Shown here piece by piece: positions 18,969 to 58,322 of a stretch of 64,000 nucleotides of DNA. This DNA is from an uncultured Alphaproteobacteria bacterium (GTDB lineage Bacteria > Pseudomonadota > Alphaproteobacteria > HIMB59): positions 1 through 64,000 of the forward strand of contig CABYGG010000005.1 of NCBI GenBank assembly GCA_902518505.1, given 5' to 3'. The position numbers and the translations under genes are program-made. Numbering within the stretch: position 1 is the stretch's first letter; each line of letters starts with the position of its first letter. The notes beneath the pieces were generated by a model. The model was given only the letters and a program-made list of their open reading frames with translations, was not told the DNA's origin and did not search any database.

Positions 18969-19787
18969 TTATTTTTGTAAAGCAGGCGAAAAAAAAGTTG
19001 ATCGCCCATTTTGAATGATTTTTTTTATCTTATAGGTCTTTTTTTTGTATATTACATGTTTCTTTTGATAAACCTTAAATAAACTCTGAAAACTTCCGAG
19101 GGTTCCGTCTGGGGATTTATAATCATTTATTGAAGAGCCACCATTTTTTAATGATAGTTTCAAAACAAATTTACAAGAACTTAATAATTGAGATATTTCT
19201 ACTTTTTTAAGGGTGTAAGTTAGTCTTTGAGGATTTAACTTTGAATGATAAAGAGCCTCATTAGCGTATATGTTTCCAATACCCACTATTAAACTTTGAT
19301 CAAGTAAAGCTTGTTTTAAAGAGATTTTTTTTCTTATAAGTTTGTTATGTATCTCATTTAAATTAACCTTATTAATTAGTAAATCAGTGCCATAGTTTTT
19401 AAAAAAAAATTTTACTTCTTTTGAGTCTTTAAGCCTAAAAAACATACCAAACCTACGAGGATCATTATAAACAATTTTAAATTTGTTAAATTGTAGAATT
19501 ACATGGTCATGTTTTTCTTTTTTATAATTTTCATTTAAATAAAACTTTAATCGACCACTCATTCCCAAATGAATAATTACATAACTATCGTTTTCTAATT
19601 CTAAGATTATGTATTTTGCAAAACGTTTAACAGATATGATTTTTTTCTGGGATATTTGCTCAAGATCTTTAAAGTTTAAATTTTTTCTTAGTTTTTTTTG
19701 TGACTTTTTAATAGAAATAATTTTTTTTCCTTTAACTTTTGACTTTAAATATCTTATTGTTGTTTCTACTTCAGGTAGTTCGGGCAT
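18969..19787 (-). CDS. mutM: Formamidopyrimidine-DNA glycosylase with a zincless finger
   Basis: Base-excision repair enzyme that removes 8-oxoguanine and formamidopyrimidines. The 272 residues begin MPELPEVE with the catalytic P2 and E3, and keep the DNA-contact Lys in RFAKYIILEL and the HLGMSGRL segment. The C-terminal zinc finger is unusual. The last 34 residues align without gaps to E. coli Fpg, but the four zinc cysteines are Y247, K250, S267 and L270. The DNA-contacting R262 in NGRSTFF is kept, so the fold may survive as a zincless finger, as in NEIL1 or plant FPG. Its start codon overlaps the divergent ubiE start codon by two bases. Confidence 0.93.
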   Translation of the reverse strand: MPELPEVETTIRYLKSKVKGKKIISIKKSQKKLRKNLNFKDLEQISQKKIISVKRFAKYIILELENDSYVIIHLGMSGRLKFYLNENYKKEKHDHVILQFNKFKIVYNDPRRFGMFFRLKDSKEVKFFFKNYGTDLLINKVNLNEIHNKLIRKKISLKQALLDQSLIVGIGNIYANEALYHSKLNPQRLTYTLKKVEISQLLSSCKFVLKLSLKNGGSSINDYKSPDGTLGSFQSLFKVYQKKHVIYKKKTYKIKKIIQNGRSTFFSPALQK

Positions 19788-38045: not shown

Positions 38046-38496
38046 ACAAAATTGCGTCTTGCGTATTTGGAGCGTTTATAGACTTACTCCGATAATAGTT
38101 TTTTCTTTCATTGTAGGCTTTATAGCCTAATTTTTCATAAAGTTTAATAGCAAATTTATTAATAGCACTCGCTTCCAGAAAGATTTTAAATGATTTTCCA
38201 GTACTTTTTAGTTGTTTTTCAAGCTCTTCTAAAATCATTCTTCCCAACCCTTGGTTTCTAAATTCAGGCAAAACAGCAATATGTAAAATTTCAAATTCAC
38301 TGACCTTTTGATCTTGATATAAAAAATGTCCTATCAAAGCACCTTTGACGTTAGTTTGATCTAGAAGATAAATATTAAAACTTGTTTCTTTATTGAGGTG
38401 AAGCTCAATATCTTTTTCACTCCAATTAATCTCTAGTTGGTCTTTATGATTGATAATCCAATTTTTAGAATCAGACAGAGTATGTGTAAAGTTCAA
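38017..38496 (-). CDS. rimI: GNAT acetyltransferase, RimI-like
   Basis: GCN5-type N-acetyltransferase of 159 residues with the acetyl-CoA loop PEFRNQGLGRMILEELEKQLK and a C-terminal KLYEKLGYKAYNERKNYY, both typical of RimI, which acetylates the N terminus of ribosomal protein S18. Its place directly before miaB supports this; in relatives tsaB precedes it, but here tsaB is elsewhere. Overlaps miaB by about 29 bases. The substrate is inferred. Confidence 0.83.
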   Translation of the reverse strand: MNFTHTLSDSKNWIINHKDQLEINWSEKDIELHLNKETSFNIYLLDQTNVKGALIGHFLYQDQKVSEFEILHIAVLPEFRNQGLGRMILEELEKQLKSTGKSFKIFLEASAINKFAIKLYEKLGYKAYNERKNYYRSKSINAPNTQDAILFAKSLNAIK

Positions 38497-39485
38497 GCCA
38501 CAATATTATCATAAAAAACCTTGGAACACTCATACCAGTTAAATTTTTTTGTATATTCTTGACATTTTTTTCGATCGATAGTCAAACAATTCAAAACATT
38601 ATCTTTTAAGTTATCACCAATAAAACCGTTGACCCCATTAACAATAATATCTTTAGGACCTGTTACATCATAAGCAGCGACTGGTGTGCCGGTTGCATTT
38701 GCCTCAGTTACCACATTTCCAAAGGTATCAGTCTTGCTAGGGAAAACCATTACATCTGAACTAGCATAGTAATTCACTAAATTCTGGCCAAACTGGTAAC
38801 CAACAAATTTTATATCTGTATATTTTTTTTTTAGTTTATTTAACTGTGGTCCATCGCCAACGACAACTTTAGTACCTTCTAAATCTAAATCTAAAAAAGC
38901 TTGAATATTTTTTTCAGTAGCCACTCGACCGATATAAGAAAATATTGGTCCCGGGCCTAAGTCTAATTTTTGATAGTTGCCAAATTTTTGATGATCGACA
39001 CCTCTTGACCAAACAACGGTATTTTTAAAATTCATATTTATTAATTCGGCCTGCATGGATGGGGTAGGAACAAGAACTTTTTTCGCTTTATTGTGAAAAT
39101 GCTTTATGAAGAAGTAAAAGAAACTTGCAGGTATTTTTATACGTTGTTGAATATACTCAGGGAAACGAGTATGAAATGAAGTTGTAAAAATAATTTTTTC
39201 TGAAAGACATATTTTTCTGGCCAAAAAACCTAGGGGCCCCTCTGTAGCAATGTGAATATGATCAGGATTGATCTGATCCATCATATTTTTCAATGTTTTT
39301 TTGCGAGTAATCACAACTTTAATCTCATTATACGAAGGAAGGCCAAAGCGAACTTTAAATAACTCAGGGTGTATTACTTCTACCTGCATACCCATTTTTT
39401 CCAATTCCGGTATGGTATTCAGATAAGAACGGACGACGCCGTTTACCTGAGGTTTCCATGCATCTGTTACTAATAATAATTTCAA
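38493..39485 (-). CDS. Glycosyltransferase family 1/4, probable diacylglycerol glycosyltransferase (Agt-like)
   Basis: GT-B fold glycosyltransferase of 330 residues: N-terminal LVTDAWKPQVNGVVRSYLN, nucleotide-sugar domain with YIGRVATEKN (about 185) and the donor-binding MVFPSKTDTFGNVVTEANATGTPVAA (about 255). It overlaps the plcP-like gene by four bases. In marine alphaproteobacteria such a pair (plcP-agt) makes sugar lipids from diacylglycerol released from phospholipids during phosphate starvation. I infer that role here from the pairing, the Pho-like element upstream of plcP, and the nearby pst-pho genes. The sugar cannot be told from sequence. Confidence 0.75.
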   Translation of the reverse strand: MKLLLVTDAWKPQVNGVVRSYLNTIPELEKMGMQVEVIHPELFKVRFGLPSYNEIKVVITRKKTLKNMMDQINPDHIHIATEGPLGFLARKICLSEKIIFTTSFHTRFPEYIQQRIKIPASFFYFFIKHFHNKAKKVLVPTPSMQAELINMNFKNTVVWSRGVDHQKFGNYQKLDLGPGPIFSYIGRVATEKNIQAFLDLDLEGTKVVVGDGPQLNKLKKKYTDIKFVGYQFGQNLVNYYASSDVMVFPSKTDTFGNVVTEANATGTPVAAYDVTGPKDIIVNGVNGFIGDNLKDNVLNCLTIDRKKCQEYTKKFNWYECSKVFYDNIVA

Positions 39486-40270
39486 GCTACAGATACCTTA
39501 TTAAGAGTTTGTTTTTCTAAAGACTGGATTTTTTTTTCATTCCAAAAGACTAACTCCAAGTTGCCTTTAAAGTCCTCAACCATTGCACTACAGCTATCTA
39601 CCCAATCTCCTAGATTATGATATGTCTTGTCACCAATTTTTTTTATTTGGGGATGGTGAATATGACCACAAACAATTCCATCACAATTATTTTTTTTTAT
39701 TCTCTCAAGACATGCATTTTCAAAATTTTCAATATATCGTTGAGCATCTTTTACTCGTGTTTTTAAATATCCTGATAAAGACCAATACGAAAGACCAAGT
39801 TTTCTTCGACAGAAATTTAAAATATTATTAAACCAAACAGAGTAGTCATAAAGGACGGCACCTATCTTTGCTAACCATTTTGAATTTAGAACTATTCCAT
39901 CAAATTCATGCCCATGCATTAAGAGAAGTCTTTTATTGTTCGCTGTTGTATGAATTCTATTTTTTCGAACTTTAATGTTTGCAAATGAAAAACCACAATA
40001 ATCTGAAAAAACTTCATCATGGTTTCCAGGTATATAATAGACTTTGGTACCTGAGCGTGCTTTTCGTAAAACTTTTTGTATGAAAGTATTAAAATCAGGA
40101 TTCCAAAACCAATTTTTTTTTAGACGCCATCCGTCTATAATATCTCCAAGTAAATAAAGATGATCACAATCATTATATTTTAAAAAGTGTAAGAGCTCCT
40201 TTACTTTTGAAGCACGTATGCCAATATGAATGTCTGAAATAAATATAGATCGATGTTTTTTGATTTGCAT
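39482..40270 (-). CDS. PlcP-like metallophosphoesterase (phospholipase C type)
   Basis: Calcineurin-like phosphoesterase of 262 residues with all metal-site motifs: SDIHIG (D13, H15), GDIIDGWR (D43), GNHDE (N83, H84), MHGHEFD (119-124) and GHIHHPQ. Sequence around LGDIIDGWRLKKNWFW and RKARSGTKVYYIPGNHDE resembles the alphaproteobacterial PlcP family, annotated as LpxH-like, whose members remove the head group from phosphatidylcholine or phosphatidylglycerol under phosphate starvation. LpxH of lipid A synthesis is the alternative, but the adjacent glycosyltransferase and an upstream copy of the 17-base Pho-like element favour PlcP. Confidence 0.8.
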   Translation of the reverse strand: MQIKKHRSIFISDIHIGIRASKVKELLHFLKYNDCDHLYLLGDIIDGWRLKKNWFWNPDFNTFIQKVLRKARSGTKVYYIPGNHDEVFSDYCGFSFANIKVRKNRIHTTANNKRLLLMHGHEFDGIVLNSKWLAKIGAVLYDYSVWFNNILNFCRRKLGLSYWSLSGYLKTRVKDAQRYIENFENACLERIKKNNCDGIVCGHIHHPQIKKIGDKTYHNLGDWVDSCSAMVEDFKGNLELVFWNEKKIQSLEKQTLNKVSVA

Positions 40271-40314
40271 AGAATCTAAAAATAGATATATCTACGATTG
40301 ATAGTATTGAGGAT

Positions 40315-40331
40315 TGTTAAAGTTTTATTAA
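40315..40331 (-). promoter_or_regulatory. Pho-box-like 17-base element upstream of plcP
   Basis: On the minus strand TTAATAAAACTTTAACA, identical to copies upstream of pstS and of the ATP-grasp gene. It contains the half-sites TTAATAA and TTAACAA at an 11-bp step, the PhoB half-site spacing. It ends 44 bases before the plcP ATG. On the other side it touches the ATG of the SET gene (40332) directly. Confidence 0.6.
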
Positions 40332-40850
40332 ATGGACTCTTCACAAAAGCTTTATATTAGAAAAAATTCTAAAATTCATGCATCTGGTCTTTTTGCAAAA
40401 GCTGATATCAGTGCTGGCACTAGAATCATTGAATATCGCGGGTTAAAGATAACTAAAGCTCAATCCGACAAGATTGCTGATGTTCACATAGAGGCAAACA
40501 AAAGGGCTAAAACAGTCGGGTCTGTTTACATTTTTACACTGAATCAAAAATACGACATCAATGGAAAAGTAACATGGAATTTAGCAAAATATATTAATCA
40601 TTCCTGCGACCCTAATTGTGAAACTGATATCATCAAAGGAAAAATATGGATTAGCGCAATTAAAGATATTAAGAAAGGCGAGGAGCTGTCCTACGACTAT
40701 GGATATGACATGTTTTGTTTCGAGGATCACCCGTGTCGATGTGGGTCTCAAAACTGTATTGGATATATTGTTCGAAGCAATCTTAGATGGAGAGTTAAAA
40801 AAAGGTTAATTGAAAATAAAAAGTCAAGATTTAACAAAAACTTCACATAA
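40332..40850 (+). CDS. SET-domain protein lysine methyltransferase
   Basis: 172-residue SET domain protein with eukaryote-like features: the substrate-entry strand HASGLFAKADI, the SAM/active-site NHSCDPNC (89-96), the catalytic-tyrosine motif GEELSYDYG (116-124), and a post-SET zinc motif with CRC (135-137) and C142. It therefore probably methylates lysines on some protein, but bacterial substrates of this group are little known. It starts right at the edge of the Pho-like element and is 17 bases upstream of dgkA, with which it is probably co-transcribed. Confidence 0.87.
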   Translation: MDSSQKLYIRKNSKIHASGLFAKADISAGTRIIEYRGLKITKAQSDKIADVHIEANKRAKTVGSVYIFTLNQKYDINGKVTWNLAKYINHSCDPNCETDIIKGKIWISAIKDIKKGEELSYDYGYDMFCFEDHPCRCGSQNCIGYIVRSNLRWRVKKRLIENKKSRFNKNFT

Positions 40851-40867
40851 GTAGTTAAACTTCAGAT

Positions 40868-41215
40868 ATGGATTTTAAAAATAAAAATATAGTAGATGCT
40901 TTTTGGTGTTCAATTGAAGGCCTAAAAATTCTCCTTCAAGAAAAAGCAGCAAGAAGAGAGCTATTATTGCTTCCCTTGTCTGCTCTATACATCGTAATTT
41001 TTCAACCGGCTCTTTTGTTCATACTTTGGCTGATAATTTTACCTTTGCTCATACTTAGTATTGAGGCTCTAAACACTGCAATAGAATATACCTGTGATAA
41101 AATTACTATGGATAAGTCAAACAAAATAAAGAAAGCTAAAGATTTGGGCTCTGCTGCAATTTTTTTATCTCTAACAGCCTATGGAATAGTTTTATTCTTA
41201 GGTTTATTTAATTAA
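40868..41215 (+). CDS. dgkA: Diacylglycerol kinase
   Basis: Small inner-membrane kinase that returns diacylglycerol to phosphatidic acid. The 115 residues have an amphipathic N terminus, the EKAARRELLLLPL segment, three hydrophobic helices and the active-site motif SIEALNTAIEYTCDKI (about 65-80). Given the PlcP/glycosyltransferase pair across the divergent promoter, its substrate pool is the same DAG: DgkA would rebuild phospholipid, whereas Agt would divert DAG to glycolipid. Confidence 0.92.
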   Translation: MDFKNKNIVDAFWCSIEGLKILLQEKAARRELLLLPLSALYIVIFQPALLFILWLIILPLLILSIEALNTAIEYTCDKITMDKSNKIKKAKDLGSAAIFLSLTAYGIVLFLGLFN

Positions 41216-41219
41216 TTTG

Positions 41220-41291
41220 GGAAGATTGACATGATTTTTCTACAAGTAGAGGAGGTCTATGTTTCAATCACAGGGGAAATGCCAATCTTCC
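41220..41291. other. Structured segment between convergent dgkA and arsC (candidate small RNA)
   Basis: GGAAGATTG (41220-41228) is perfectly complementary to CAATCTTCC (41283-41291). After one mismatch, CAT (41230-41232) pairs with ATG (41279-41281). The enclosed 46 bases hold a second hairpin, TCTA/TAGA around 41239-41250, and a weaker TTTTTC/GGGGAA pairing. It is more GC-rich than nearby gaps. A 24-codon ORF (41231-41305, beginning MIFLQVEEVY and preceded by GGGAAG) overlaps it, so a tiny gene is an alternative. The loop is too large for a simple intrinsic terminator. No known RNA family is recognised. Confidence 0.4.
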
Positions 41292-41331
41292 ACCTAATAA
41301 AATAATCATTTATATTAAATTAAAGTTAAAT

Positions 41332-41802
41332 TTAGATTAAATTTCCAATTTCTTTTATTTGATCGATATTTAATAAGTTGTTTTGCTTATAATTTTGAAC
41401 TAGTGCAAGACATCTTTTTTTAAGAACATTGAATACTTTTAAAAATTCTATCTCAACTTCCTCTTCAGTGCCTTTAAATTTTGCAGGATCAGCTACACCC
41501 CAATGTGCCTTTAATGTATTTTTGAGATACAGGGGGCAAGTTTCTCCAGCTGCATTATCACACACAGTAATAACCAAATCAAAATTAATATCTGAAAAAT
41601 CATTCCATGATTGACTTTTAAAATTGTCTAGGAAAATTTTATTTTTTTCTAATGTTTTGATACTTAATGGATGCACATATCCTGCAGGGTGGCTTCCTGC
41701 ACTATAAGCATTAAAAAAGTCTTTACCATAATGGTTTAAAAGCCCCTCTGTTATAATTGATCGACAAGAGTTACCTGTACAAAGTACAAGAATTTTAATC
41801 AT
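41332..41802 (-). CDS. arsC: Arsenate reductase, low-molecular-weight phosphatase type
   Basis: LMW-PTP fold protein of 156 residues with the P-loop CTGNSCRS (C8 to R14, CX5R) and the later VCDNAAGETCPLY with the resolving cysteines of thioredoxin-coupled ArsC (B. subtilis type). It reduces arsenate, a phosphate mimic imported through Pst, to arsenite. It is the last gene after phoB, one base downstream, so it is probably induced together with phosphate uptake. No arsenite exporter is visible in the window. Confidence 0.88.
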   Translation of the reverse strand: MIKILVLCTGNSCRSIITEGLLNHYGKDFFNAYSAGSHPAGYVHPLSIKTLEKNKIFLDNFKSQSWNDFSDINFDLVITVCDNAAGETCPLYLKNTLKAHWGVADPAKFKGTEEEVEIEFLKVFNVLKKRCLALVQNYKQNNLLNIDQIKEIGNLI

Positions 41803-41803
41803 T

Positions 41804-42493
41804 TTAATTTTCTGAATCGATAGAGTAGCCAGCGGATCTAACTGTTCGAATGAAATCTTTTTCTCCTGGTAAATTCAGCTCTTTTCTGAGTCTTCTTATG
41901 TGAACATCAACTGTTCTAGGTTCAACGTAAGCGTCATTTAACCAAACATTATCCAATAGTTGCTGCCTAGAATAGACTCTACCTTTATTTTCAATAAAAA
42001 ATTTTAAAAGATTAAATTCAGTCGGTCCTAAATTTAATTTTCTCTCACCCCTTGATACCCTTCTGTTGGTAAGATTAATGTTAATATCATGAAACTTGAG
42101 TGAGTCGTTCTCTTCTCTTGCTTTTGTTCTTTTAAGTAATGATTTAATTCTAGCAAGGATCTCACTTGGAAGAAAAGGTTTGGTTACATAATCCTCCACA
42201 CCTAATTCAAAACCTCTAATTTTATCATCCTCTTGACCTTTAGCTGTTAACATTATAATTGGAATTTTTTTTAGATTATCTTTTCTTTTAATTCTCTTTA
42301 AAACTTCAATGCCCGATATATTTGGTAGCATCCAATCTAATAAAATTAAATCAGGCAGCCAATGTTCGATCTCTTGGATTGCAGATTCTCCGTCGTATGA
42401 AAATTTTATTTGGTAGTTTTGTTGTTCTAAATGAAATCCAATTAATTCTGAGATTGGTTTTTCATCCTCTACAACTAAAATCTTGTCTGTCAT
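41804..42493 (-). CDS. phoB: Phosphate regulon response regulator PhoB
   Basis: OmpR-type response regulator of 229 residues: receiver with acidic EDE pocket, phospho-acceptor Asp in LILLDWMLP (about 54), the switch Thr/Lys (MLTAKG, TKPF), and a winged-helix DNA-binding domain with RTVDVHIRRLRKEL and FIRTVRSAGYSID. The location after phoU and downstream of pst identifies it as PhoB. Overlaps phoU by four bases. Confidence 0.95.
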   Translation of the reverse strand: MTDKILVVEDEKPISELIGFHLEQQNYQIKFSYDGESAIQEIEHWLPDLILLDWMLPNISGIEVLKRIKRKDNLKKIPIIMLTAKGQEDDKIRGFELGVEDYVTKPFLPSEILARIKSLLKRTKAREENDSLKFHDININLTNRRVSRGERKLNLGPTEFNLLKFFIENKGRVYSRQQLLDNVWLNDAYVEPRTVDVHIRRLRKELNLPGEKDFIRTVRSAGYSIDSEN

Positions 42494-43173
42494 TCAAAAT
42501 CAGATTTTTTTAAATCAATATAATGACCTGTAATGTTAAAAATGACCTCTTCAGCTATGTTAGTAGCATGATCACCTATTCTTTCTAAGGACTTTGCAAT
42601 TAAAATTGGCTTAGTGCCTTCATCAACAACACTTGTTTCTTTATTGTGCATTCTTTCTATTAAATCAGATAATAAAGATTTGTACTGCCTGTCAATTTCT
42701 GCATCTTGATTCCATGAGATCCTTGCCTGTACCTCATCTTTTTTAAAAAAACTCTCAAGTGTTTGATTAACCATTTTTTGGACACCTTTACCTAAATTAT
42801 GCATTTGGTCCGTTAAATCCTCGTCAAATGAAGAAGAAATTGAAATAGCTCTTTTTGCTAAATTTCTAGAGTGATCTCCCATTCTCTCAAGCTCTTTTGA
42901 AACTTTGAGGGCAGTGAAAACTAGTCTTAAATCACTGGCAACGGGTCTATGTAAAGTCATAATTTCGAAACTTAAATCCCTAACATCTCTTTCCACTTCA
43001 TCAACTTGTTCATCAAGATTCTGTGTTGTCTGTGCATCAGATGAGTCTTTAGATTTAATAACATTTACTGCAATTTCAATTTGTTTCTCAACAATATTAC
43101 TCATTTTAATTAAATTATCTGTAAGATGATTTAACTTTTGTTCAAAGTTTTTATCTGTGTGTGCTGTTTCCAT
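42490..43173 (-). CDS. phoU: Phosphate signalling regulator PhoU
   Basis: Helical protein that links Pst transporter status to PhoR. From the ATG at 43173 it has 227 residues and two PhoU domains, each with the metal-binding ExxxD motif region (KELERMGDHSRNLAK and KSLERIGDHATNIAEEV). The gene follows pstB by one base and overlaps phoB. Confidence 0.95.
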   Translation of the reverse strand: METAHTDKNFEQKLNHLTDNLIKMSNIVEKQIEIAVNVIKSKDSSDAQTTQNLDEQVDEVERDVRDLSFEIMTLHRPVASDLRLVFTALKVSKELERMGDHSRNLAKRAISISSSFDEDLTDQMHNLGKGVQKMVNQTLESFFKKDEVQARISWNQDAEIDRQYKSLLSDLIERMHNKETSVVDEGTKPILIAKSLERIGDHATNIAEEVIFNITGHYIDLKKSDFE

Positions 43174-43174
43174 T

Positions 43175-43951
43175 TTAACCAAACCTTCCAGTTATGTAGT
43201 CATTTGTTTGTTCTTTATCAGGTTTTGTAAATATCTTACCAGTTTCTCCATATTCGACAAGGTTACCTAAATGAAAAAACGCAGTTTTAGATGATACTCG
43301 TGATGCTTGAGACATAGAATGAGTTACTATAATAATTGTGTAATTTTCTTTCAATTCGTTAATTAAATCTTCTATTTTTGCGGTTGCTATTGGATCTAAT
43401 GCAGAACAAGGTTCGTCCATCAAAATGATTTCCGGTCTTATAGCAATCGCTCTTGCAATGCACAATCTTTGCTGTTGTCCTCCTGATAAACCGGTAGCAA
43501 TATCATCCATTCTATCTTTTACCTCTTCATAAAGACCCGCTCTGTGAAGTGAGTCTTTTACTATTTCATCTAATTCATTTTGAGAAGAAGCAATACCATG
43601 AATTTTTGGTCCGTAGGCAACATTTTCATAAATAGTTTTTGGAAAAGGATTGGGTTTTTGAAAAACCATTCCAACTTTTTCGCGAAGAGTTTCTACCTGT
43701 ATATCAGGGCTATATATATCAACATTGCCATTCAACAAAAACTTACCTTTAACATTACAAATATCTATTACATCATTCATACGGTTTAAACATCGCAAAA
43801 ATGTCGACTTACCACAACCTGAGGGTCCTATAAGAGAAGTTACTTCATTTTTTGGAAAATTAAGAGCAACGTTATTGATTGCCATTTTTTTTCCATAGTG
43901 GACATATACCTCACTTGTTTGCAAAGCATAATTGCTGTTTTGATCTACCAT
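43175..43951 (-). CDS. pstB: Phosphate ABC transporter ATP-binding protein PstB
   Basis: ATPase of the high-affinity phosphate importer. The 258 residues contain Walker [10 protein letters not shown], the Q-loop FQKPNPFP (the PstB-specific NPFP), the signature [14 protein letters not shown], Walker [12 protein letters not shown] and the switch His. It overlaps pstA by 7 bases. Confidence 0.97.
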
Positions 43952-45195
43952 TTCACCTCCAATTTTCTTCTTACCAACACTGCCACAGTATTCATTATAA
44001 TCAAAAAAGATAAAAGTAGCATTATTCCTGCAGATGTTTTTTCGAGGAAACCTCTTTCAGCGCTCTCAGACCATAGATATATTTGTGAAGGAAGACCAGT
44101 GGCAGGGTCGAATGCCCCTCCCGGTATTTCCATCACAAAAGCAACCATACCTACCAATAATAAAGGGGCTGTCTCACCCAAAGCTTGTGCCATTCCAATA
44201 ATTGTTCCAGTAAGAGTACCTGGCAAAGATAAAGGGATTACATGATGAAATACAGTTTGCATTTTAGTAGCCCCCACAGCAAGTGCTCCCTCTCTAATTG
44301 AAGGGGGGACGCCTCTGAGCGATGCCCTAGATGCTATAATAATTGTTGGTAAAGTCATAAAACCTAAAACTAATCCTCCAACTAAAGGGACTTGATATGG
44401 CATCCCAAAAACTCCAATTAGCATACCTAAGCCTAAAAGTCCGTAAACAATAGAGGGAACCGCCGCAAGGTTATTTATATTTACTTCAATAATGTCAGTT
44501 ATTTTTCCTGGTTTAACAAATTCCTCTAAGTACACAGAAGCCAAAAGTCCGATTGGAAAAGCAAAACTAAAACAGATCAATAAAGCATAAAAAGACCCCA
44601 TAAGTGCTCCAAGTATTCCGGCTGTTTCTGGATCTCTTGAGTCTCCATTTGTGAAAAACCAAAAATTGAATGTCTTAGACATTTTACCTTTGGAGTCTAA
44701 AGAGTCTAAGATAGAAAGTTGATAATCATTTATTTTTCGTTGTGCTTCGGGAACATTTCTTGGATAGTTTCCTTTGACAATTTGGTCAAGATCTGATGAG
44801 GCAGATATATCTAAATTGACAGTTTTTCCAATTACATTTGGATTGTTTGCAATATAATCTCTCAGCTGATAATCAAATTTTCTTGTGTACATTTCTCTGA
44901 CTTTAATAAAATTTTCTTCATCTAATCCAGGATGGTTTTGGTTAATCACTTGATCAGCAAGATCAACATAAGATGCTTTCATTATTTCTTTTTTGGAGGA
45001 GTTACTAGAAACCTCTATAAAATTTGGGTCAAAATAAACATCAGCATTAATAGTTGTTCTAACAAAAGCACCACTGCCGGTAGAAAAAATTTTATACATT
45101 AAAATAAGCACGAAGAACAAAGAGAGAGTCATCGCAAACATTCCATAAAATTTGAAACGTTTCTCTGCTGCAAGTCTCTTTTCTAAACTACTCAT
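43945..45195 (-). CDS. pstA: Phosphate ABC transporter permease PstA
   Basis: Inner-membrane channel subunit. The 416 residues are long for PstA (about 296 in E. coli): a periplasmic region of about 130 residues between the first helix (about 15-37) and the second carries [15 protein letters not shown]-type sequence; this large DUF3333-like insertion is common in alphaproteobacterial PstA. The permease motif [13 protein letters not shown] and the C-terminal helices are intact. Overlaps pstC by 8 bases. Confidence 0.94.
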
Positions 45196-46624
45196 ATTTT
45201 TCTCTGTACTTTTTTACTATTGTTATAGCAGCAATATTAAGAATTAATGTCATTACAAATAAAGTTAGGCCTAAAGCAAAAGCAACTAAGGTTTTTGGAT
45301 TATCAAACTCGACATCTCCTATCAAACTTGTAACAATCTGTGTTGTTATTGTAGTCGCTGGCTCCAAGGGATTAAAAGTAAGATTTGCTCTTAGGCTGGC
45401 GGCCATAACGACAATCATTGTCTCACCTATTGCCCTAGATATAGCTAATAAAAATGAGCCCATTATTCCAGCTAGAGCTGCTGGTAAAATTACTTTTTTA
45501 ATAGTTTCTGATTTAGTTGCTCCAATTGCATAAGAACCCTCTCTTAAAGATTGAGGAACTGCTTTTATGACATCGTCACTAAGAGAGGAAACAAAAGGTA
45601 TGATCATAACACCCATCGCTAAACCTGCAGCTAGAGCACTTTCAGCGGACACCGGTAATCCAACGCCTTCACCGACATCTTTTATGAAAGGTGCCAGTGA
45701 TAAAGCAGCAAAAAATCCATAAACAACTGTGGGTATGCCAGCAAGAATTTCAATTATTGGTTTAGCTATATCTCTTACTTTTGATGACGCATACTCTGCT
45801 AAATAAATTGCTGTTAGCAGTCCTAAAGGAACAGCGACTAACATGGCAACAGATGCAATTAAAAGCGTTCCGGTAAGCAAAGGTACAAAACCAAAAGCCT
45901 CTTTTAAAGCCTCTTGATCGAAGCCTTCTGATGCATTGATAACAAAAGCTCTATTGGGATTCCATGCCGTATTAAAGAAAAAGTCCATAAAATTTACGTA
46001 CCGAAAAAAATTAATGGCCTCGAAAACAAGAGAAAAGAAGATTCCAAAAGTAATGAATATTGCAATATAAGAACTGCCCTTGATAACATATGAAATTATT
46101 TTCTCAACAATTGGCTGTGCATTTAGTTTTCCTGATATTGATTTCGTAGCCAAAAATCCTAAAAGCACAGGTAGAATAATAAATAGAGTTAAATTCGACC
46201 ATCCGTAGATCTTGTCAAAATTTGCTAAATTTTTTGCTGCAATTATCTCACTCTCACTGGCCATTTTTAAAATTGATTTATCGCCTACGGTCAAATCAAT
46301 TTCTGGTAAATTAACAATTATAGATAGGTTGCTAATCTTATTCATAATTAAACCGAATTTTCCAGAGCTCCATGTAGCGACATCTGGAAATAACACAGGG
46401 GACATTACAAACATCTCTTGAAAGTTTGATTTAAAAATAAGTAAAAAGAACCAAATAATTATTGCTGGAAAAAAAACTAAAAGGACAACGTAATATCCAT
46501 AATAATCTGGAAGAGAGGAAAGATTTTCATTTTTTTTAAATTTTAGGCTTAATGCTCTTTTTTTACCATAGAAGTAAAAAGAGTAAGAAAGTATAAAAAC
46601 AAAAACAAGTGATAAATAAAGCAT
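45188..46624 (-). CDS. pstC: Phosphate ABC transporter permease PstC
   Basis: Partner channel subunit, 478 residues, again longer than E. coli PstC (319) because of an N-terminal extension with two extra helices (about 1-22 and 47-66) and a periplasmic domain. The permease cassette EGSYAIGATKSETIKKVILPAAL and the family's AIYLAEYAS are present. Translation starts 80 bases after pstS, beyond a perfect hairpin. Confidence 0.95.
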   Translation of the reverse strand: MLYLSLVFVFILSYSFYFYGKKRALSLKFKKNENLSSLPDYYGYYVVLLVFFPAIIIWFFLLIFKSNFQEMFVMSPVLFPDVATWSSGKFGLIMNKISNLSIIVNLPEIDLTVGDKSILKMASESEIIAAKNLANFDKIYGWSNLTLFIILPVLLGFLATKSISGKLNAQPIVEKIISYVIKGSSYIAIFITFGIFFSLVFEAINFFRYVNFMDFFFNTAWNPNRAFVINASEGFDQEALKEAFGFVPLLTGTLLIASVAMLVAVPLGLLTAIYLAEYASSKVRDIAKPIIEILAGIPTVVYGFFAALSLAPFIKDVGEGVGLPVSAESALAAGLAMGVMIIPFVSSLSDDVIKAVPQSLREGSYAIGATKSETIKKVILPAALAGIMGSFLLAISRAIGETMIVVMAASLRANLTFNPLEPATTITTQIVTSLIGDVEFDNPKTLVAFALGLTLFVMTLILNIAAITIVKKYREKYE

Positions 46625-46656
46625 ACTGTCCTATTCCTCTATAAACTGATTTTGTC

Positions 46657-46682
46657 TTAGGGGCAAGAAATCTTGCCCCTAA
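46657..46682 (-). repeat. Perfect hairpin between pstS and pstC
   Basis: A 12-base arm, TTAGGGGCAAGA, and its exact complement are separated by two bases. On the minus (transcribed) strand no T-run follows; the bases after it are GACAAAATCAG. It is therefore unlikely to be a full intrinsic terminator, and fits a 3'-end stabiliser or processing site that keeps pstS mRNA more abundant than that of the permease genes. Confidence 0.75.
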
Positions 46683-46704
46683 AAATAAGATAATTAATTA
46701 ATGC

Positions 46705-47781
46705 TTACTTACAAAGTCCGCTTGAAAAAGCGTAACCAGCATCTTTTAATGGATGTTTTTTTTCAGCACATGCTGCAATATCAAATCCCATTGCATCTAA
46801 GCTGTCAGTAACGTTTCTTACTCTATTGATAAGGTCTGGTACCATAGGTGCAGCACCAATTTTTGTTAGGTAACCGTTATCACCAATTGCTTCATCACTT
46901 ACCATCATTTGTGCAAACTCCTGAATGCCAGGTACAACCCCGATGTGATCTGCTTTTAAGTATATGAAAAGAGGTCTTGCCATTGGATACTCATAAGTTG
47001 CAATGGATTCAGCAGATGGTACTACTCCCTCAACAGTAGATGGTTGTAATTTATCTCCGTTGTCTTTTAGATAAGAATAACCAAAGTAACCAAAACGTTC
47101 TGGATCCTCAACTAGTTTTTGAACAATAAGAGTGTCATTCTCACCCATCTCGATGATTTTTCCATCTTCTCTGTAATCAGTACATCCATCGTCACTGCCA
47201 GTTACTGCTTCTAATGTACATCCAGCTTCCATTACTTTACCATCAAATGCATCTCTTGTTCCTGAGGTTGGAGGAGCTACTAATACTTCAATTTTATATG
47301 CAGGAAGGCTTGGGTTAATTTCGTTCCAAGTTTGATATGGATTTTCGACCACTTCACCATCAACAACAACTTTTGCAGCCATAGCTGTAAAGATTTCTTC
47401 TCTTGTTAGAGAAAAAGGTTCTGCTTCGTTGGAGTGAGAAAAAGTAATACCGTCATTAGCCCACATCACTTCAATTACGTTTGTTACACCGGCTTCAAGA
47501 CATAATTTAGCTTCTTTAGCTTTCATTGGTCGTGACGCTCCAGTAATATCTGGAAATTCAACTCCCACACCAGCACAAAATGCTTTCATTCCACCACCAG
47601 TTCCAATTGGATTGTAAGTGGGGGTTTTAAAACCTGACTCGCCGAGTCTTTGTGCGTTTACTGTTCCATATGGGTATACTGTTGATGAGCCAACAATATT
47701 AATTTGATCTCTTGCAAAAGTTTCAGCAGAGAAAAGTACGCTTACTGCTAGAGCAAGAAAAGTTAACATAGATTTTTTCAT
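46705..47781 (-). CDS. pstS: Phosphate ABC transporter periplasmic binding protein PstS
   Basis: Binds phosphate in the periplasm for PstCAB. The 358 residues start with a clean signal peptide (MKKSMLTFLALAVSVLFSAETFA, cleavage before RDQ) and the phosphate-binding GSSTVYPYG, with the later APPTSGTRDAF and TGASRPMKAKE segments. It is preceded by GGAAC-type ribosome-binding sequence and by a Pho box about 60 bases upstream. It is separated from pstC by a hairpin, consistent with higher PstS output. Confidence 0.96.
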   Translation of the reverse strand: MKKSMLTFLALAVSVLFSAETFARDQINIVGSSTVYPYGTVNAQRLGESGFKTPTYNPIGTGGGMKAFCAGVGVEFPDITGASRPMKAKEAKLCLEAGVTNVIEVMWANDGITFSHSNEAEPFSLTREEIFTAMAAKVVVDGEVVENPYQTWNEINPSLPAYKIEVLVAPPTSGTRDAFDGKVMEAGCTLEAVTGSDDGCTDYREDGKIIEMGENDTLIVQKLVEDPERFGYFGYSYLKDNGDKLQPSTVEGVVPSAESIATYEYPMARPLFIYLKADHIGVVPGIQEFAQMMVSDEAIGDNGYLTKIGAAPMVPDLINRVRNVTDSLDAMGFDIAACAEKKHPLKDAGYAFSSGLCK

Positions 47782-47840
47782 AGTTAAGTTCCTTTATGTT
47801 GTTTAAATTGAGCTAAAAATATCCATTAGAAGTAAATCTT

Positions 47841-47869
47841 ATGTTACAAATATGTTAAAGTTTTATTAA
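47841..47869 (-). promoter_or_regulatory. Pho box array upstream of pstS
   Basis: Reading on the minus strand, three half-sites recur at exact 11-bp steps: TTAATAA, TTAACAT and GTAACAT. The last two with their 4-base spacer match the 7-4-7 layout of the PhoB box (consensus CTGTCAT). The first 17 bases are identical to elements upstream of plcP and the ATP-grasp gene. The array overlaps the phoR stop and ends 60 bases before the pstS ATG, leaving room for a -10 (TCTAAT about 10 bases on). Confidence 0.75.
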
Positions 47870-49131
47870 GCATGCTTTGGAATTGTGATTAAAAACTCTG
47901 AGCCTTTTCCAACTTCACTTTTTATGTCAATAAAACCCATGTTTTTATTCAAAATATGTTTCACAATTGAAAGGCCTAATCCAGTACCACCAACCTCTTT
48001 GGATCGAGCACTGTCCACTCTGTAAAATCTCTCGGTAAGCCTTGAGATGTGCTCTTCTGCAATGCCTATGCCATTATCCTTGAAGGAAATTTCGACATAT
48101 TCAGTCATATTGCTAGTATTCATTTTTTCACGAGCTTTAATTAAAATTTTAGCACCATCTTTTGAATATTTAACAGCGTTGTTAACGATATTGACAACCA
48201 CTTGAATAAATTCTTCATGAGGACATCCAACTAAAAGAGATTGGTCTAAATTAATATCAACATTTATTTTTTTCTTTAAAATTTTTGACTCCAATGAGTT
48301 TATTCCAATTTTAACGGTATTTAATAAATTACAAAATTGGTCATTCTCATTAGTTTTTTTATTCTCGATGGAACTTAAACTTAATAGATCATCAATCAAA
48401 GAGTTCATTCGATTTGACTGATCTTGAATAATTGAAATAAATTTTTTTTTATTTTTTTCATCGTCAACAGTTAAAAGTGTTTCTAAATATCCTATTATTG
48501 AAGAGAGTGGAGTTTTTAATTCGTGACTTACATTAGCTACGAAGTCAGTTCTTACCATCTCAAGATTTTTAATTGCAGTAATGTCTTTAAAAGCAACGCA
48601 AAAAAAATCGTTAATTGGAAATCCTGTAACGTCGTAATATCGGTCATTTGGTATTAATCTGTTCCACTCAAAATTTTTTTTTGATTTAGTTTTAAGTGCG
48701 TTACTTAGATTTTCAGACAAAGATAAGTCTCTTAAACCTATTTTAAGGTTATCTGCATTTTCTAAATTAAATGTCTCTTTGAAAATATTATTAACGAATA
48801 TGATATTATAATCGTAATCTATAATAACTATTGAGAGGTCTAAGGAGTTAAGAATGTCTTGATACTCCAAACTTTGTTTGTCACCAACTTCGATGCGTCT
48901 TTCTTTGTCTAAAAGAGTCTCTTCTAAAATATTTCGGACTTTTGTAAATAACATATTGTCAGATTTTCTTAGGTCAAAAGTTTTTTTTTCAAGATAGCTC
49001 TCAAAGAAATAATAAGAAATGAAATAAACTAAACTCTGAGAAATAATTGATATTAAAAAAATATTAATTGAAGTACTAAAAAACAAAAATAAGTTTAATG
49101 AGAGAACAGCAATAGAAAATACAAATAACAT
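47866..49131 (-). CDS. phoR: Phosphate regulon sensor kinase PhoR
   Basis: Membrane histidine kinase controlling PhoB. The 421 residues have two N-terminal transmembrane helices (about 2-45), a PAS domain (about 85-190), the H-box VANVSHELKTPLSSIIGY and the ATPase motifs NNAVKYS, DNGIGI and GGTGLGLSIV. It lies one base after ppk and just upstream of pstS, so sixA-ppk-phoR seems to be one transcript read ahead of the Pho-box promoter of pst. Confidence 0.93.
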   Translation of the reverse strand: MLFVFSIAVLSLNLFLFFSTSINIFLISIISQSLVYFISYYFFESYLEKKTFDLRKSDNMLFTKVRNILEETLLDKERRIEVGDKQSLEYQDILNSLDLSIVIIDYDYNIIFVNNIFKETFNLENADNLKIGLRDLSLSENLSNALKTKSKKNFEWNRLIPNDRYYDVTGFPINDFFCVAFKDITAIKNLEMVRTDFVANVSHELKTPLSSIIGYLETLLTVDDEKNKKKFISIIQDQSNRMNSLIDDLLSLSSIENKKTNENDQFCNLLNTVKIGINSLESKILKKKINVDINLDQSLLVGCPHEEFIQVVVNIVNNAVKYSKDGAKILIKAREKMNTSNMTEYVEISFKDNGIGIAEEHISRLTERFYRVDSARSKEVGGTGLGLSIVKHILNKNMGFIDIKSEVGKGSEFLITIPKHA

Positions 49132-53244: not shown

Positions 53245-53267
53245 CTTTGGTATTTGGAGAAAAAATA

Positions 53268-54840: not shown

Positions 54841-54866
54841 ACCCTCTCTAAATTAATAGGGAGGGT
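54841..54866. terminator. Hairpin between convergent genes
   Basis: ACCCTCTCT pairs with AGGGAGGGT (one G-U pair) around an eight-base A/T loop. It lies in the 38-base gap between the convergent anchor-I and ATP-grasp genes and touches the stop of the latter. T-runs are weak on both sides; a two-way terminator is the likely role. Confidence 0.65.
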
Positions 54867-55720
54867 TAGATTAAATAGCTTTTTCTAAACTTGTCATTAA
54901 TAAGTGCAATAGCTTTTTTTCCATCCTCAAGTGAAATCTTATCTGGCGGACCCCAAGCAGTTTTATTGACATCAACAATGTAAATTTTTTTCGTATCCCT
55001 ATCTCTTAAAATGTCTAACTCCCCAAAATCTAGTTTAAATTTTTTACAAAATTCATTTATTAAACTAATCTCTTCATTTTCAAATAAAGAACAAATTGAG
55101 ACTATTTTTGAATAAACAGTTTTAGATTTAAAGCGATATTCTTTTTGAGCAAATTTCACGTAAGCTAATACAATTTCATCTTTAACCCATACGACCCTAT
55201 AATCGATAGCAAATTCGTTATAAATATTATTAATTAATTTTTGGTAAACCTTATTTTTATAAATTTTAAATCCTAACGAAGAACTATTTATAATCTTCCC
55301 GTCATGTTTTGCATTTTGCTCTGATTTTTCTAAAATTGAACCATGAAAGTTTTTTGGATCTAAGCTCAGAGAATAACCAAAAATCTCTAAGAAAACTTTA
55401 TCAACATTAGATTTACTGATGTCAGTGCAATTTTTATTTATTACTATTTTTTTTGGATTTCCAGAGACTTGGTAGTTACTATTAGTTTTGTCATAAAAAT
55501 ATAATTCTATGTCAGCTAGTTCTGGGGAGGACGTAAACCTAACTGGCAAGCCCCATCTAACTTTAGCTAAAGTATAAAGTGGATTCAAAGGCCTTCTAGG
55601 GTAACAGATTATTTTTTTTTTATTTGATGAGGTAGATTCATATAAGCTAATCAAAAAATAAACATCTCTCAGCCCTCGAAGAATAGTACTAATTACGTCT
55701 GAAACAGTTATTGATGACAT
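54866..55720 (-). CDS. ATP-grasp domain protein of unknown function
   Basis: 284 residues from the ATG at 55720. The C-terminal part has the ATP-grasp metal/ATP signature FGELDILRDRDTKKIYIVDVNKTAWGPP (about 233-260), as in carboxylate-amine ligases; an upstream DYRVVWVKDEIVLAYVKFAQ resembles the central ATP-grasp strands. The N-terminal half (IICYPRRPLNPLYTLAKVRWGLPV) is not recognised. No signal peptide or membrane segment is seen. A copy of the 17-base Pho-like element ends 33 bases before the start, so it may respond to phosphate. A longer frame to 55753 would erase most of the promoter and is less likely. Confidence 0.7.
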   Translation of the reverse strand: MSSITVSDVISTILRGLRDVYFLISLYESTSSNKKKIICYPRRPLNPLYTLAKVRWGLPVRFTSSPELADIELYFYDKTNSNYQVSGNPKKIVINKNCTDISKSNVDKVFLEIFGYSLSLDPKNFHGSILEKSEQNAKHDGKIINSSSLGFKIYKNKVYQKLINNIYNEFAIDYRVVWVKDEIVLAYVKFAQKEYRFKSKTVYSKIVSICSLFENEEISLINEFCKKFKLDFGELDILRDRDTKKIYIVDVNKTAWGPPDKISLEDGKKAIALINDKFRKSYLI

Positions 55721-55753: not shown

Positions 55754-55770
55754 TGTTAAAGTTTTATTAA
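55754..55770 (-). promoter_or_regulatory. Pho-box-like 17-base element, ATP-grasp/glnD gap
   Basis: Minus-strand TTAATAAAACTTTAACA followed by T, identical over 18 bases to the pstS copy, with half-sites TTAATAA and TTAACAT at an 11-bp step. It ends 33 bases before the ATP-grasp ATG. The other edge includes the A of the glnD ATG. Confidence 0.55.
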
Positions 55771-58322
55771 TGAAAGATATCTCTCAAATAAAAAAGAAGT
55801 ATCAATCAAATAAGGTTAAATTATTTCAAAAATTAGCATCAACTAATGATGGCTTCTATTTTAATAAAAATCATACAGATCTTGTGGATACAGTTGTAAA
55901 AGAAATAGTTAAAGGAATTTATAATATTTATCCAATAGAAGATTTCTCTTTAATCGCTGTAGGTGGGTACGGCAGACATGACTTGTCACCAAAAAGTGAT
56001 GTTGACTTACTATTTATTTATAAAAAATCTAATAAAAATATGAGAGATTTTATTACTCAATTAAATAACACACTGTGGGATATTGGATTAGAAGTTGGAA
56101 TATCTTTCTTAACAATTAAACAGGCATTAATTGATTCTAAGAAAGATACAAAGACAATTACAAAATTTGTTGAGACTCGTTTTATTATTGGTGATGAAAT
56201 TCAATATGGTGAGTTTGTTAGGTCCATTAAGATTTTAATTGGAAAACAAAATCCCTTAAAGCTCAGCGAATTAAAGCTTATAGAGTTAGTTGAAAGACAT
56301 GACTATCGAATAGGAATTAAAAGTAAATTAGAGCCGAATATCAAAGAGGGTATTGGGGGTCTTAGAGATATTCATACCATACTGTGGGTATCAATCTTTA
56401 TGTTTAATATTTATAGATTAGAAGACTTAACGTCTGTTAATATCTATACCAAAGAGGAAATTAAAGAATTAAAGAATGCTTGGAAATTTCTCTTAACCAT
56501 TCGAGCATTTATTCATTTGTTTAACGAAAGCAAAGGCGATGTTTTATCTATTGAAAATCAATTAAAAATTTCAAAAAAACTCTCTTACAAAGATAAAAAG
56601 AAGGAAAAAGGAGTGGAGATTTTTATGAAAGATTTGTTTGTGAATGTTGCAAAGATTAATTCTCTCTTAAGAACCTTTTATTCAAAGCTTCCAGAGGATT
56701 TAATAATCAAAACAATTTATAAAAGAAAACCCACTAAAACTAAATCATTAGAAAAAGAATTTATAATTGAAAAAGGTTTTCTGAATTTAAAAAATAATAC
56801 CGCTAAAAACCTTCAACTAAAATGGGCAAACGTCTTTGAAAAATCCTTGGAACATAATTTACTCATTCATCCTCGCTTTTTAAAGACCGTCGAGGAAAAA
56901 AGAAAAGTTTTAAAAAAAACCACAAATAAACAGCACCTCCAATCATTTTTAAATATTGTCGTCTCCAAAAAAAATCCTATACAGGCCCTTCATGATTTTA
57001 ATGATACCCAGCTATTTAGCGAAATATTTCCTGAGTTTGGTAGAGTTTGGGGACAAGTGCAGTTTGATATTTATCATCACTACACCACCGACGAACACTT
57101 ATTACTAACACTGCACAACCTAAATGAGCTAAGACAAAAATCCTTTTATAATGAAATATATAGCAGGTTATCCTCAAGAGAAGCTCTTCACATTGCTTTA
57201 CTATTTCATGACATTGGAAAGAAGGGGCCAAAAAATCATTCTGTTTATGGAACAGAGTTAACCAACAAGATCCTAAAAAGACTTCCTGTGTCAGAAGAAG
57301 TGAAAGAATTGACATTGTGGTTAGTTGAAAACCATTTAGCAATGAGCGATACAGCTTTTAAAAATGATACTCAAAGTCCTGAGGCAATTGCTAAATTTAC
57401 ATCTATTGCAAACACAGAAGAAAAAATAAACTCATTGTTTCTTTTTACCTTATGTGACATTGCCTCTGTCGGACCAAACGTTCTAAACGAATGGAGAATA
57501 AGCCTGCTTAGAAGTTTATTTTATAATGCAAGAGATTTTCTGCAAAGAGGTCTAGATACAAAAACGTATTCTACTTCTGTTCAAGAATCTTTGAAGAAAT
57601 CAGTATTACAAAAATCTGATGTTAATTTAAAAAAGTTTATAAAAAATTCGATAAATGAATTTCCAAATCAATTCTGGGAAGCTTTTTCATCAAGAATGAT
57701 CGTCGATATCTTTAAAATTTACCAAAGAAATAAAAAAGCAAAGGTTATTAACTCTGTAAATTTTCTTAATTATGAAAATAAAGAATATAGTGCTGTTGTT
57801 GTCACAAGTAAAAATAGACCAGGGATTTTAAAAGATATTGTTTCGGGGTTTACACACTCTCAATCGAATATTCTTAGTTCAAGAATAATATCTTTAAATA
57901 ACAATCAAGTAATTGATGTGTTTTGGGTAACCAATTTTTTGAATAAAGGTGTTTTAGATTTAAACGAACAGAAAAGAGCAGCTAAACATGTAATGAGCGC
58001 TCTTGATCAAAAAGATTTTAAACCCTTACGGTCATTTACCAAAGGTCTACAAAAACTTGCTGTAAATCCTCAAATTACAATTGATAACGATATGAGTAAG
58101 CAAGTCACTACTTTTCAAGTATTATCTGGCGATAGGCCTGGATTATTAATGGATATTTTGGGAGTTTTTCATGACAAACAAATAAGTGTCCAATCAGCAA
58201 AAATTTCCACATACGGGGAAAAGGTTTTCGATATTTTTCAATTAACGAATAGCAATAACCAAAAAATCAAAGATAAAAAATTACTCAAATCAATAGAAAA
58301 AGATTTAATGTCTATTTTTTAG
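55770..58322 (+). CDS. glnD: Bifunctional uridylyltransferase/uridylyl-removing enzyme GlnD
   Basis: Nitrogen sensor that modifies PII proteins according to glutamine. From ATG 55770 it has 850 residues: nucleotidyltransferase domain with GGYGRHDLSPKSDVDLLF, a helical linker, an HD phosphohydrolase with LFHDIGKKGPKNHS, and two C-terminal ACT domains (VVVTSKNRPGILKDIV and QVLSGDRPGLLMDIL) that bind glutamine. An in-frame extension to 55731 overlaps the divergent gene and is rejected. No glnB is in the window. Confidence 0.96.
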   Translation: MKDISQIKKKYQSNKVKLFQKLASTNDGFYFNKNHTDLVDTVVKEIVKGIYNIYPIEDFSLIAVGGYGRHDLSPKSDVDLLFIYKKSNKNMRDFITQLNNTLWDIGLEVGISFLTIKQALIDSKKDTKTITKFVETRFIIGDEIQYGEFVRSIKILIGKQNPLKLSELKLIELVERHDYRIGIKSKLEPNIKEGIGGLRDIHTILWVSIFMFNIYRLEDLTSVNIYTKEEIKELKNAWKFLLTIRAFIHLFNESKGDVLSIENQLKISKKLSYKDKKKEKGVEIFMKDLFVNVAKINSLLRTFYSKLPEDLIIKTIYKRKPTKTKSLEKEFIIEKGFLNLKNNTAKNLQLKWANVFEKSLEHNLLIHPRFLKTVEEKRKVLKKTTNKQHLQSFLNIVVSKKNPIQALHDFNDTQLFSEIFPEFGRVWGQVQFDIYHHYTTDEHLLLTLHNLNELRQKSFYNEIYSRLSSREALHIALLFHDIGKKGPKNHSVYGTELTNKILKRLPVSEEVKELTLWLVENHLAMSDTAFKNDTQSPEAIAKFTSIANTEEKINSLFLFTLCDIASVGPNVLNEWRISLLRSLFYNARDFLQRGLDTKTYSTSVQESLKKSVLQKSDVNLKKFIKNSINEFPNQFWEAFSSRMIVDIFKIYQRNKKAKVINSVNFLNYENKEYSAVVVTSKNRPGILKDIVSGFTHSQSNILSSRIISLNNNQVIDVFWVTNFLNKGVLDLNEQKRAAKHVMSALDQKDFKPLRSFTKGLQKLAVNPQITIDNDMSKQVTTFQVLSGDRPGLLMDILGVFHDKQISVQSAKISTYGEKVFDIFQLTNSNNQKIKDKKLLKSIEKDLMSIF

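Follow-up and report, generated by a model that had tools for sequence, protein, structure and literature searches.

The phosphate island and its repeated 17-base element

The window, a 64,000-nt stretch of DNA with 32% GC, comes from a HIMB59-type alphaproteobacterium whose assembly spans 1.21 Mb and is 79.5% complete. The host PhoB is 80% identical to that of a record named HIMB59 and 97–100% identical to those of 27 loci, 25 of which are filed as uncultured Alphaproteobacteria and the other two, from one bin, as Neomarinimicrobiota. The window carries a phosphate island that adjoins glnD and comprises plcP-agt, a phosphatase-family gene, phoB, phoU, pstBACS, phoR, ppk, sixA, ppx and a choice-of-anchor-I gene. 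Such islands are already published: in the parts of PMC10734472 covered here, the flexible phosphate islands of HIMB59, named fGIp-A to H, resemble the window in carrying the pst operon, PhoR-PhoB, ppk, SixA, ppx, ALP and DGK, along with genes named LpxH and RfaG, which are taken here to be plcP-agt, and version A has no PhoR-PhoB. The terms 'pho box' and 'promoter' each occur 0 times in the main text of that paper, and the operators are not described in the parts covered. The relevant features of the window are as follows.

38493..39485, minus strand: agt-like glycosyltransferase (Glyco_trans_1_4, Glycos_transf_1)
39482..40270, minus strand: plcP-like metallophosphoesterase, phospholipid remodelling (Metallophos; LpxH models below cut-off)
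40301..40306, minus strand: -10-like TACTAT, 8 nt after the 17-mer
40316..40333, minus strand: predicted Pho box of plcP-agt, ATTTAAT-AAAA-CTTTAAC (17-mer 40315-40331; flush against the divergent SET ATG)
40332..40850, plus strand: SET-domain gene, divergent from plcP
41804..42493, minus strand: phoB (TIGR02154, 309.6 bits against a cut-off of 296.2)
42490..46624, minus strand: phoU, pstB, pstA, pstC
46705..47781, minus strand: pstS (Pfam PBP_like_2; TIGR02136 match below its cut-off)
47843..47860, minus strand: third half-site at pstS, as the overlapping predicted box CTTTAAC-ATAT-TTGTAAC (matrix rank 8)
47854..47871, minus strand: predicted Pho box of the pst operon, GCTTAAT-AAAA-CTTTAAC (17-mer 47853-47869, running into the stop codon of phoR)
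47866..49131, minus strand: phoR-type histidine kinase (TIGR02966, 295.0 bits, below its cut-off of 334.2)
54866..55720, minus strand: ATP-grasp-like gene, candidate Pho regulon member
55755..55772, minus strand: predicted Pho box of the ATP-grasp-like gene, CATTAAT-AAAA-CTTTAAC (17-mer 55754-55770, running into the start codon of glnD)
55770..58322, plus strand: glnD, at the island border

Beside phoB, positions 41332-41802 encode a member of the low-molecular-weight phosphatase family whose best scores, below the respective cut-offs, are to arsenate reductase models; this gene could tie arsenate detoxification to phosphate uptake.

The initial annotation had singled out a 17-mer, TTAATAAAACTTTAACA, as identical at three minus-strand promoters, and exact copies indeed lie at 40331-40315, 47869-47853 and 55770-55754. 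All three precede minus-strand starts, as had been claimed, with 45 (plcP) and 72 (pstS) bases between the 3' end of the element and the start, and 34 at the ATP-grasp-like gene if that gene begins at the ATG at 55720. The window holds exactly these three exact copies, with no fourth in the host assembly, and TTAATAAAACTTTAACA is the only 17-mer with at least three copies in the window. Allowing up to 3 mismatches, we counted 6 matches in the window compared with a mean of 2.9 in shuffles. In Markov simulations of orders 1, 3 and 5, some 17-mer was tripled in 0, 3 and 3 of 100 runs, respectively, and TTAATAAAACTTTAACA itself in none of the 300 runs. Three copies are thus unusual, as first proposed, but recurrence alone is weak evidence because 0–3 of 100 simulated runs yield some triple 17-mer; what is decisive is the link to particular genes.

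That link is evident across the family, where 63 exact copies occur in 30 of 52 genomes, at plcP (24), the ATP-grasp-like gene (20) and pstS (19), and the reversed-pattern control has zero exact copies in the same 52 genomes. The copies were placed by coordinates, with direct reading of fetched loci for 30 of the 63, and the counts are not independent because the family genomes are close relatives. The initial annotation had envisaged many copies away from phosphate genes as the outcome that would speak against a Pho regulon; instead, 63 of 63 stand at these three promoters. The targets are without exception phosphate genes or genes located in the phosphate island, the latter being the case for the ATP-grasp-like gene.

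Beyond these promoters the signal fades. At up to 2 mismatches, the host assembly shows no excess (10 matches against 13 for the reversed control), and seven near-matches (1–2 mismatches) in the same genome were rejected as further regulon members, being located in or beside genes with no evident phosphate role when the ORFs were read. No further promoter was found in this incomplete assembly, which leaves a very small regulon and counts against the Pho reading. The 17-mer also occurs exactly in 77 viral contig stretches, which we take as chance rather than viral carriage; a comparison of 19 window proteins with the fetched parts of those contigs gave a single match, to a PhoH-like protein (28% identity, L047).

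Half-site register, matrix scan and the PhoB protein

The E. coli Pho box consists of two CTGTCAT-like half-sites 11 bp apart. The 11-bp period reported for the pstS promoter is real, but the frame initially assigned to it (TTAATAA, TTAACAT, GTAACAT) is off by 2 bases; the frame homologous to the classical box is GCTTAAT-AAAA-CTTTAAC-ATAT-TTGTAAC. Bridging spellings in relatives fix this register: the pstS promoters of distant relatives show, for example, CTGTCAT-AAAA-CTTTAAC, with boxes CTGTCATAAAACTTTAAC (L243, L244), TTGTCATAAAACTTTAAC (L248) and TTGTCATAAATCTTTAAT, and those of the sister family CTGTAATAAATCCTTAAT or ATGTAATAAAACTGTAAT (L262). The window elements thus comprise two 7-bp direct repeats with a 4-bp spacer and an 11-bp period, homologous to CTGTCAT boxes. 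They share with the E. coli box the 7-4-7 direct repeat and its period, the AAAA spacer, the position ahead of pstS and an identical PhoB recognition helix, whereas their half-sites CTTTAAC, TTGTAAC and xTTTAAT differ by C5 to A and, often, G3 to T, the changes through which the bridging spellings lead stepwise to the classical box. By the strict E. coli consensus, none of the three sites has a TGTCA core; the pstS boxes of relatives vary as well.

To place this spelling, we read further alphaproteobacterial pstS loci, the best 26 from 228 genomes with a match. Four of these, with 28–31% GC (L303-L306), have A+T-shifted boxes, namely, TTGTAATAAAACTTTAAC, TTGTAACAAAACTTTAAC (two) and ATGTAATAAAAATGTAAC. 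Of the other 22, 16 have a place that differs from CTGTCAT-N4-CTGTCAT at no more than 4 of its 14 fixed positions and 6 have none, a count made with no shuffle control. Most of these 22 GC-richer loci, unlike the window, keep a CTGTCAT-like half-site, and the GC-rich L310, L320 and L323 share the second half-site TGTAAC with the window boxes. The sites had been described as an unusual AT-rich type; they are A+T-rich, but this spelling is common to 4 of the 26 loci, all those at or below 31% GC, so it is not unique and seems to follow base composition.

A matrix scan placed the same sites near the top. The matrix, drawn entirely from outside the clade, was built from 17 sites registered by hand (16 distinct), 10 of them from the sister family and 7 from remote members of the window's own genus; sister-family rows with no evident site (L265/G130), one with too short an upstream region (L266) and repeated sequences were left out. 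It ranked the three sites 1, 3 and 7 of ~128,000 positions, with ranks 2, 4, 5 and 6 inside ORFs and, below them, the first pstS box at rank 7. With the ten sister-family sites only, the three sites ranked 1, 3 and 12, the first pstS box being 12th and the overlapping second one 4th. By this matrix the three promoters top the 56 ORF upstream regions (16.7, 14.0 and 13.5); the median is 2.0 and the 90th percentile 8.8, and the next region, a non-promoter region at 12.0, lies near the 13.5 of the third site. The third half-site is peculiar to pstS, the matrix giving -2.2 and -2.7 at that position for the other two elements. Two other matches were rejected as promoters, one at 19534, which lies inside the ORF 18969-19787, and a weak one 50 bp before the gene at 53247, whose score of 8.0 is under the 90th percentile of the control.

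The recognition helix RTVDVHIRRLRK and the wing TVR of the window's PhoB are identical to those of E. coli. In the relatives' loci, some of which share a genome, the helix is kept in 55 of 56 PhoB matches, the remaining one having Val to Ile, and the wing in 56 of 56. The residues described as contacting DNA, Thr194, Val197, Arg201 and Arg219 (PMC3264566, PMC3973317, the parts covered), are all present in the host PhoB. One feature fits the contact chemistry of PhoB poorly: Arg201 of E. coli PhoB forms a hydrogen bond with a guanine in the complex with DNA (PMC3973317, the parts covered), and the half-sites of the plcP and ATP-grasp-like boxes, all without the G of TGTCA, contain no G at all.

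Presence and absence of the boxes among relatives

We compared box scores with gene content at each of the three promoters. At pstS, the upstream region scores 11.9–16.0 in 32 of 32 scored family genomes with phoB, whereas no box is present in any of the three pst islands devoid of phoR and phoB (G019, 6.7; G020, 6.7; G042, 3.5). In these three, pstSCAB-phoU is present and phoR and phoB are absent from the island, and a PhoB search at E 1e-40 gave no match in the respective genomes, which are 79, 81 and 66% complete; G019 and G020 are alike, so that the cases represent about two lineages. Of the 39 family genomes with pstS, two were unscored, G036 (40 bp upstream) and G021 (pstS begins at a contig end), and two were set aside as ambiguous, G025 (phoR present, phoB not found, 13.5) and G023. 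The latter retains the end of phoR (55% identity over 42 aa), with phoB not found and a pstS upstream score of only 8.8; its leader and pstS start are almost letter-identical to those of G019 and G020, the sequences diverging where the box ends on its downstream side. The box shares bases with the phoR stop codon, so passive linkage may account for its disappearance along with phoR.

Several of these loci show further peculiarities. In G042 (L237:811-2539), the translations between glnD and pstS include PhoU-like and Pit-type permease ORFs and no kinase. The G025 locus (L255, G025:C2:1-8500) has pstC pieces on the opposite strand beside pstS and looks like a chimeric single-cell contig, and in G121 (L264:3130-4072) the pstS match is in two pieces, possibly through a frameshift or sequencing error.

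The other two promoters provide a separate comparison. At the ATP-grasp-like gene, the box is present beside glnD in 22 of 22 genomes carrying the gene (12.4 or 14.0) and was not found in any of the 19 scored genomes that lack it; 18 of these score at or below 6.7, and one has 10.8 elsewhere. Of the 42 family genomes with glnD, G008 was unscored (its match starts inside the gene), and four that appear twice were counted once. Within the order, 22 of 162 genomes have the gene, and every one belongs to this family. Nine homologues from other alphaproteobacteria, 26–33% identical, show no match to CTGTCAT-N4-CTGTCAT with under 5 mismatches, so Pho control of this gene looks local to the clade. 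The window's protein has no Pfam match, and 3 of 11 proteins in the alignment match the RimK ATP-grasp profile weakly, with a best E of 0.0033.

At plcP, all 30 family promoters read carry the 17-mer, exact in 24 and with one mismatch in 6. A TANNNT, sought at offsets 6–11 with no control, follows 8–9 nt after the 17-mer in 30 of 30 (11 distinct, mostly close relatives), a spacing that would be expected if the box replaces a -35 element. At the divergent SET-domain gene, the box tracks plcP: L245, L247 and L248, the three loci with that gene, have it, and seven of seven loci without plcP do not. We use the name plcP because the gene is paired with an agt-like gene, and following PMC4796936, where, in the parts covered, plcP-agt clusters of marine heterotrophs have a predicted upstream PhoB site, as in the window; the main-text parts covered contain no HIMB59 box sequence. 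The SET-domain gene adjoins the phosphate island in both families, even where plcP is absent. In five sister-family loci (L257, L270, L273, L274, L275), the island carries plcP twice; (G)AAATAAAATTTTAACA lies upstream of the copy next to ppk, and no box is evident by eye at the copy next to SET.

Predicted Pho operators and alternative readings

The register, the outside-clade matrix, the co-occurrence with phoB and the identical recognition helix agree, and the reading of the elements as PhoB sites, already proposed in the initial annotation, is strengthened: we consider it very probable that all three are PhoB operators (Pho boxes). The alternatives each have some evidence in their favor. 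Another OmpR-family regulator with TTTA-type half-sites, such as KdpE, might act on the same genes, given that the KdpE half-sites TTTATA and TTTACA (PMC3264566, the parts covered) are close to CTTTAAC and that a first look found several PhoB-like candidates per genome; yet the relatives' boxes have CTGTCAT half-sites, no box is found where phoR and phoB are missing, and the targets are confined to phosphate genes and the phosphate island, making such a regulator very improbable. Slightly more improbable still is a reading that needs no dedicated regulator, in which the elements are either A+T-rich core promoters kept by conservation or copies of a single promoter that was duplicated recently. 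The plcP copies do precede a -10-like sequence and the GC content is low, but the flanks of the three copies look unrelated by eye, the window's other ORF upstream regions score lower, and pstS of G019 and G020 has no box even though the leader downstream matches that of the box-bearing G023.

The box beside glnD could also serve glnD itself, coupling phosphate to nitrogen control, as the A of the glnD ATG falls within the 17-mer. The orientation, however, fits the ATP-grasp-like gene, and we rejected glnD as the target, a very unlikely one, given that the box accompanies the ATP-grasp-like gene throughout and is missing from every scored glnD genome without it.

On the Pho-operator reading, we infer PhoB binding, the phosphate response, the geometry of activation and the extent of the operons from sequence comparison. 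At low phosphate, PhoR would phosphorylate PhoB, two molecules of which would bind head to tail on the 7-bp half-sites, with their 11-bp period, in the -35 position, and recruit sigma-70 RNA polymerase to a -10 element ~9 bp downstream; this would switch on pstSCAB-phoU-phoB, plcP-agt (phospholipid replacement) and the ATP-grasp-like gene. The mechanism is known; what is new are the added predicted boxes and one gene, the ATP-grasp-like one, as a candidate member of the Pho regulon. Among the titles and abstract openings on Pho boxes, PhoB, the Pho regulon or pstS in SAR11, Pelagibacter, HIMB59, AEGEAN-169 and alphaproteobacteria that were covered, mostly outside subscription journals, none describes the box.

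The boxes sit on gene borders, at the phoR stop codon, the glnD start codon and the SET start codon. A more speculative proposal, which we regard as possible but doubtful, is that Pho operators are part of exchanged cassettes, with boxes on their borders, and that PhoB recognizes the guanine-less boxes mainly by the shape of the DNA and less through the contact of Arg201 with guanine. If so, gain or loss of phoBR, plcP-agt or the ATP-grasp-like gene would automatically bring or remove its switch, and recombination at the edge of a box would turn pst from regulated to unregulated.

These predictions provide a working definition of the Pho box for an A+T-rich, mostly uncultured ocean lineage, in which searches with a GC-richer consensus may miss it. 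Moreover, they suggest that the switch may or may not accompany a phosphate island as it travels, in which case DNA could predict which strains regulate phosphate uptake.
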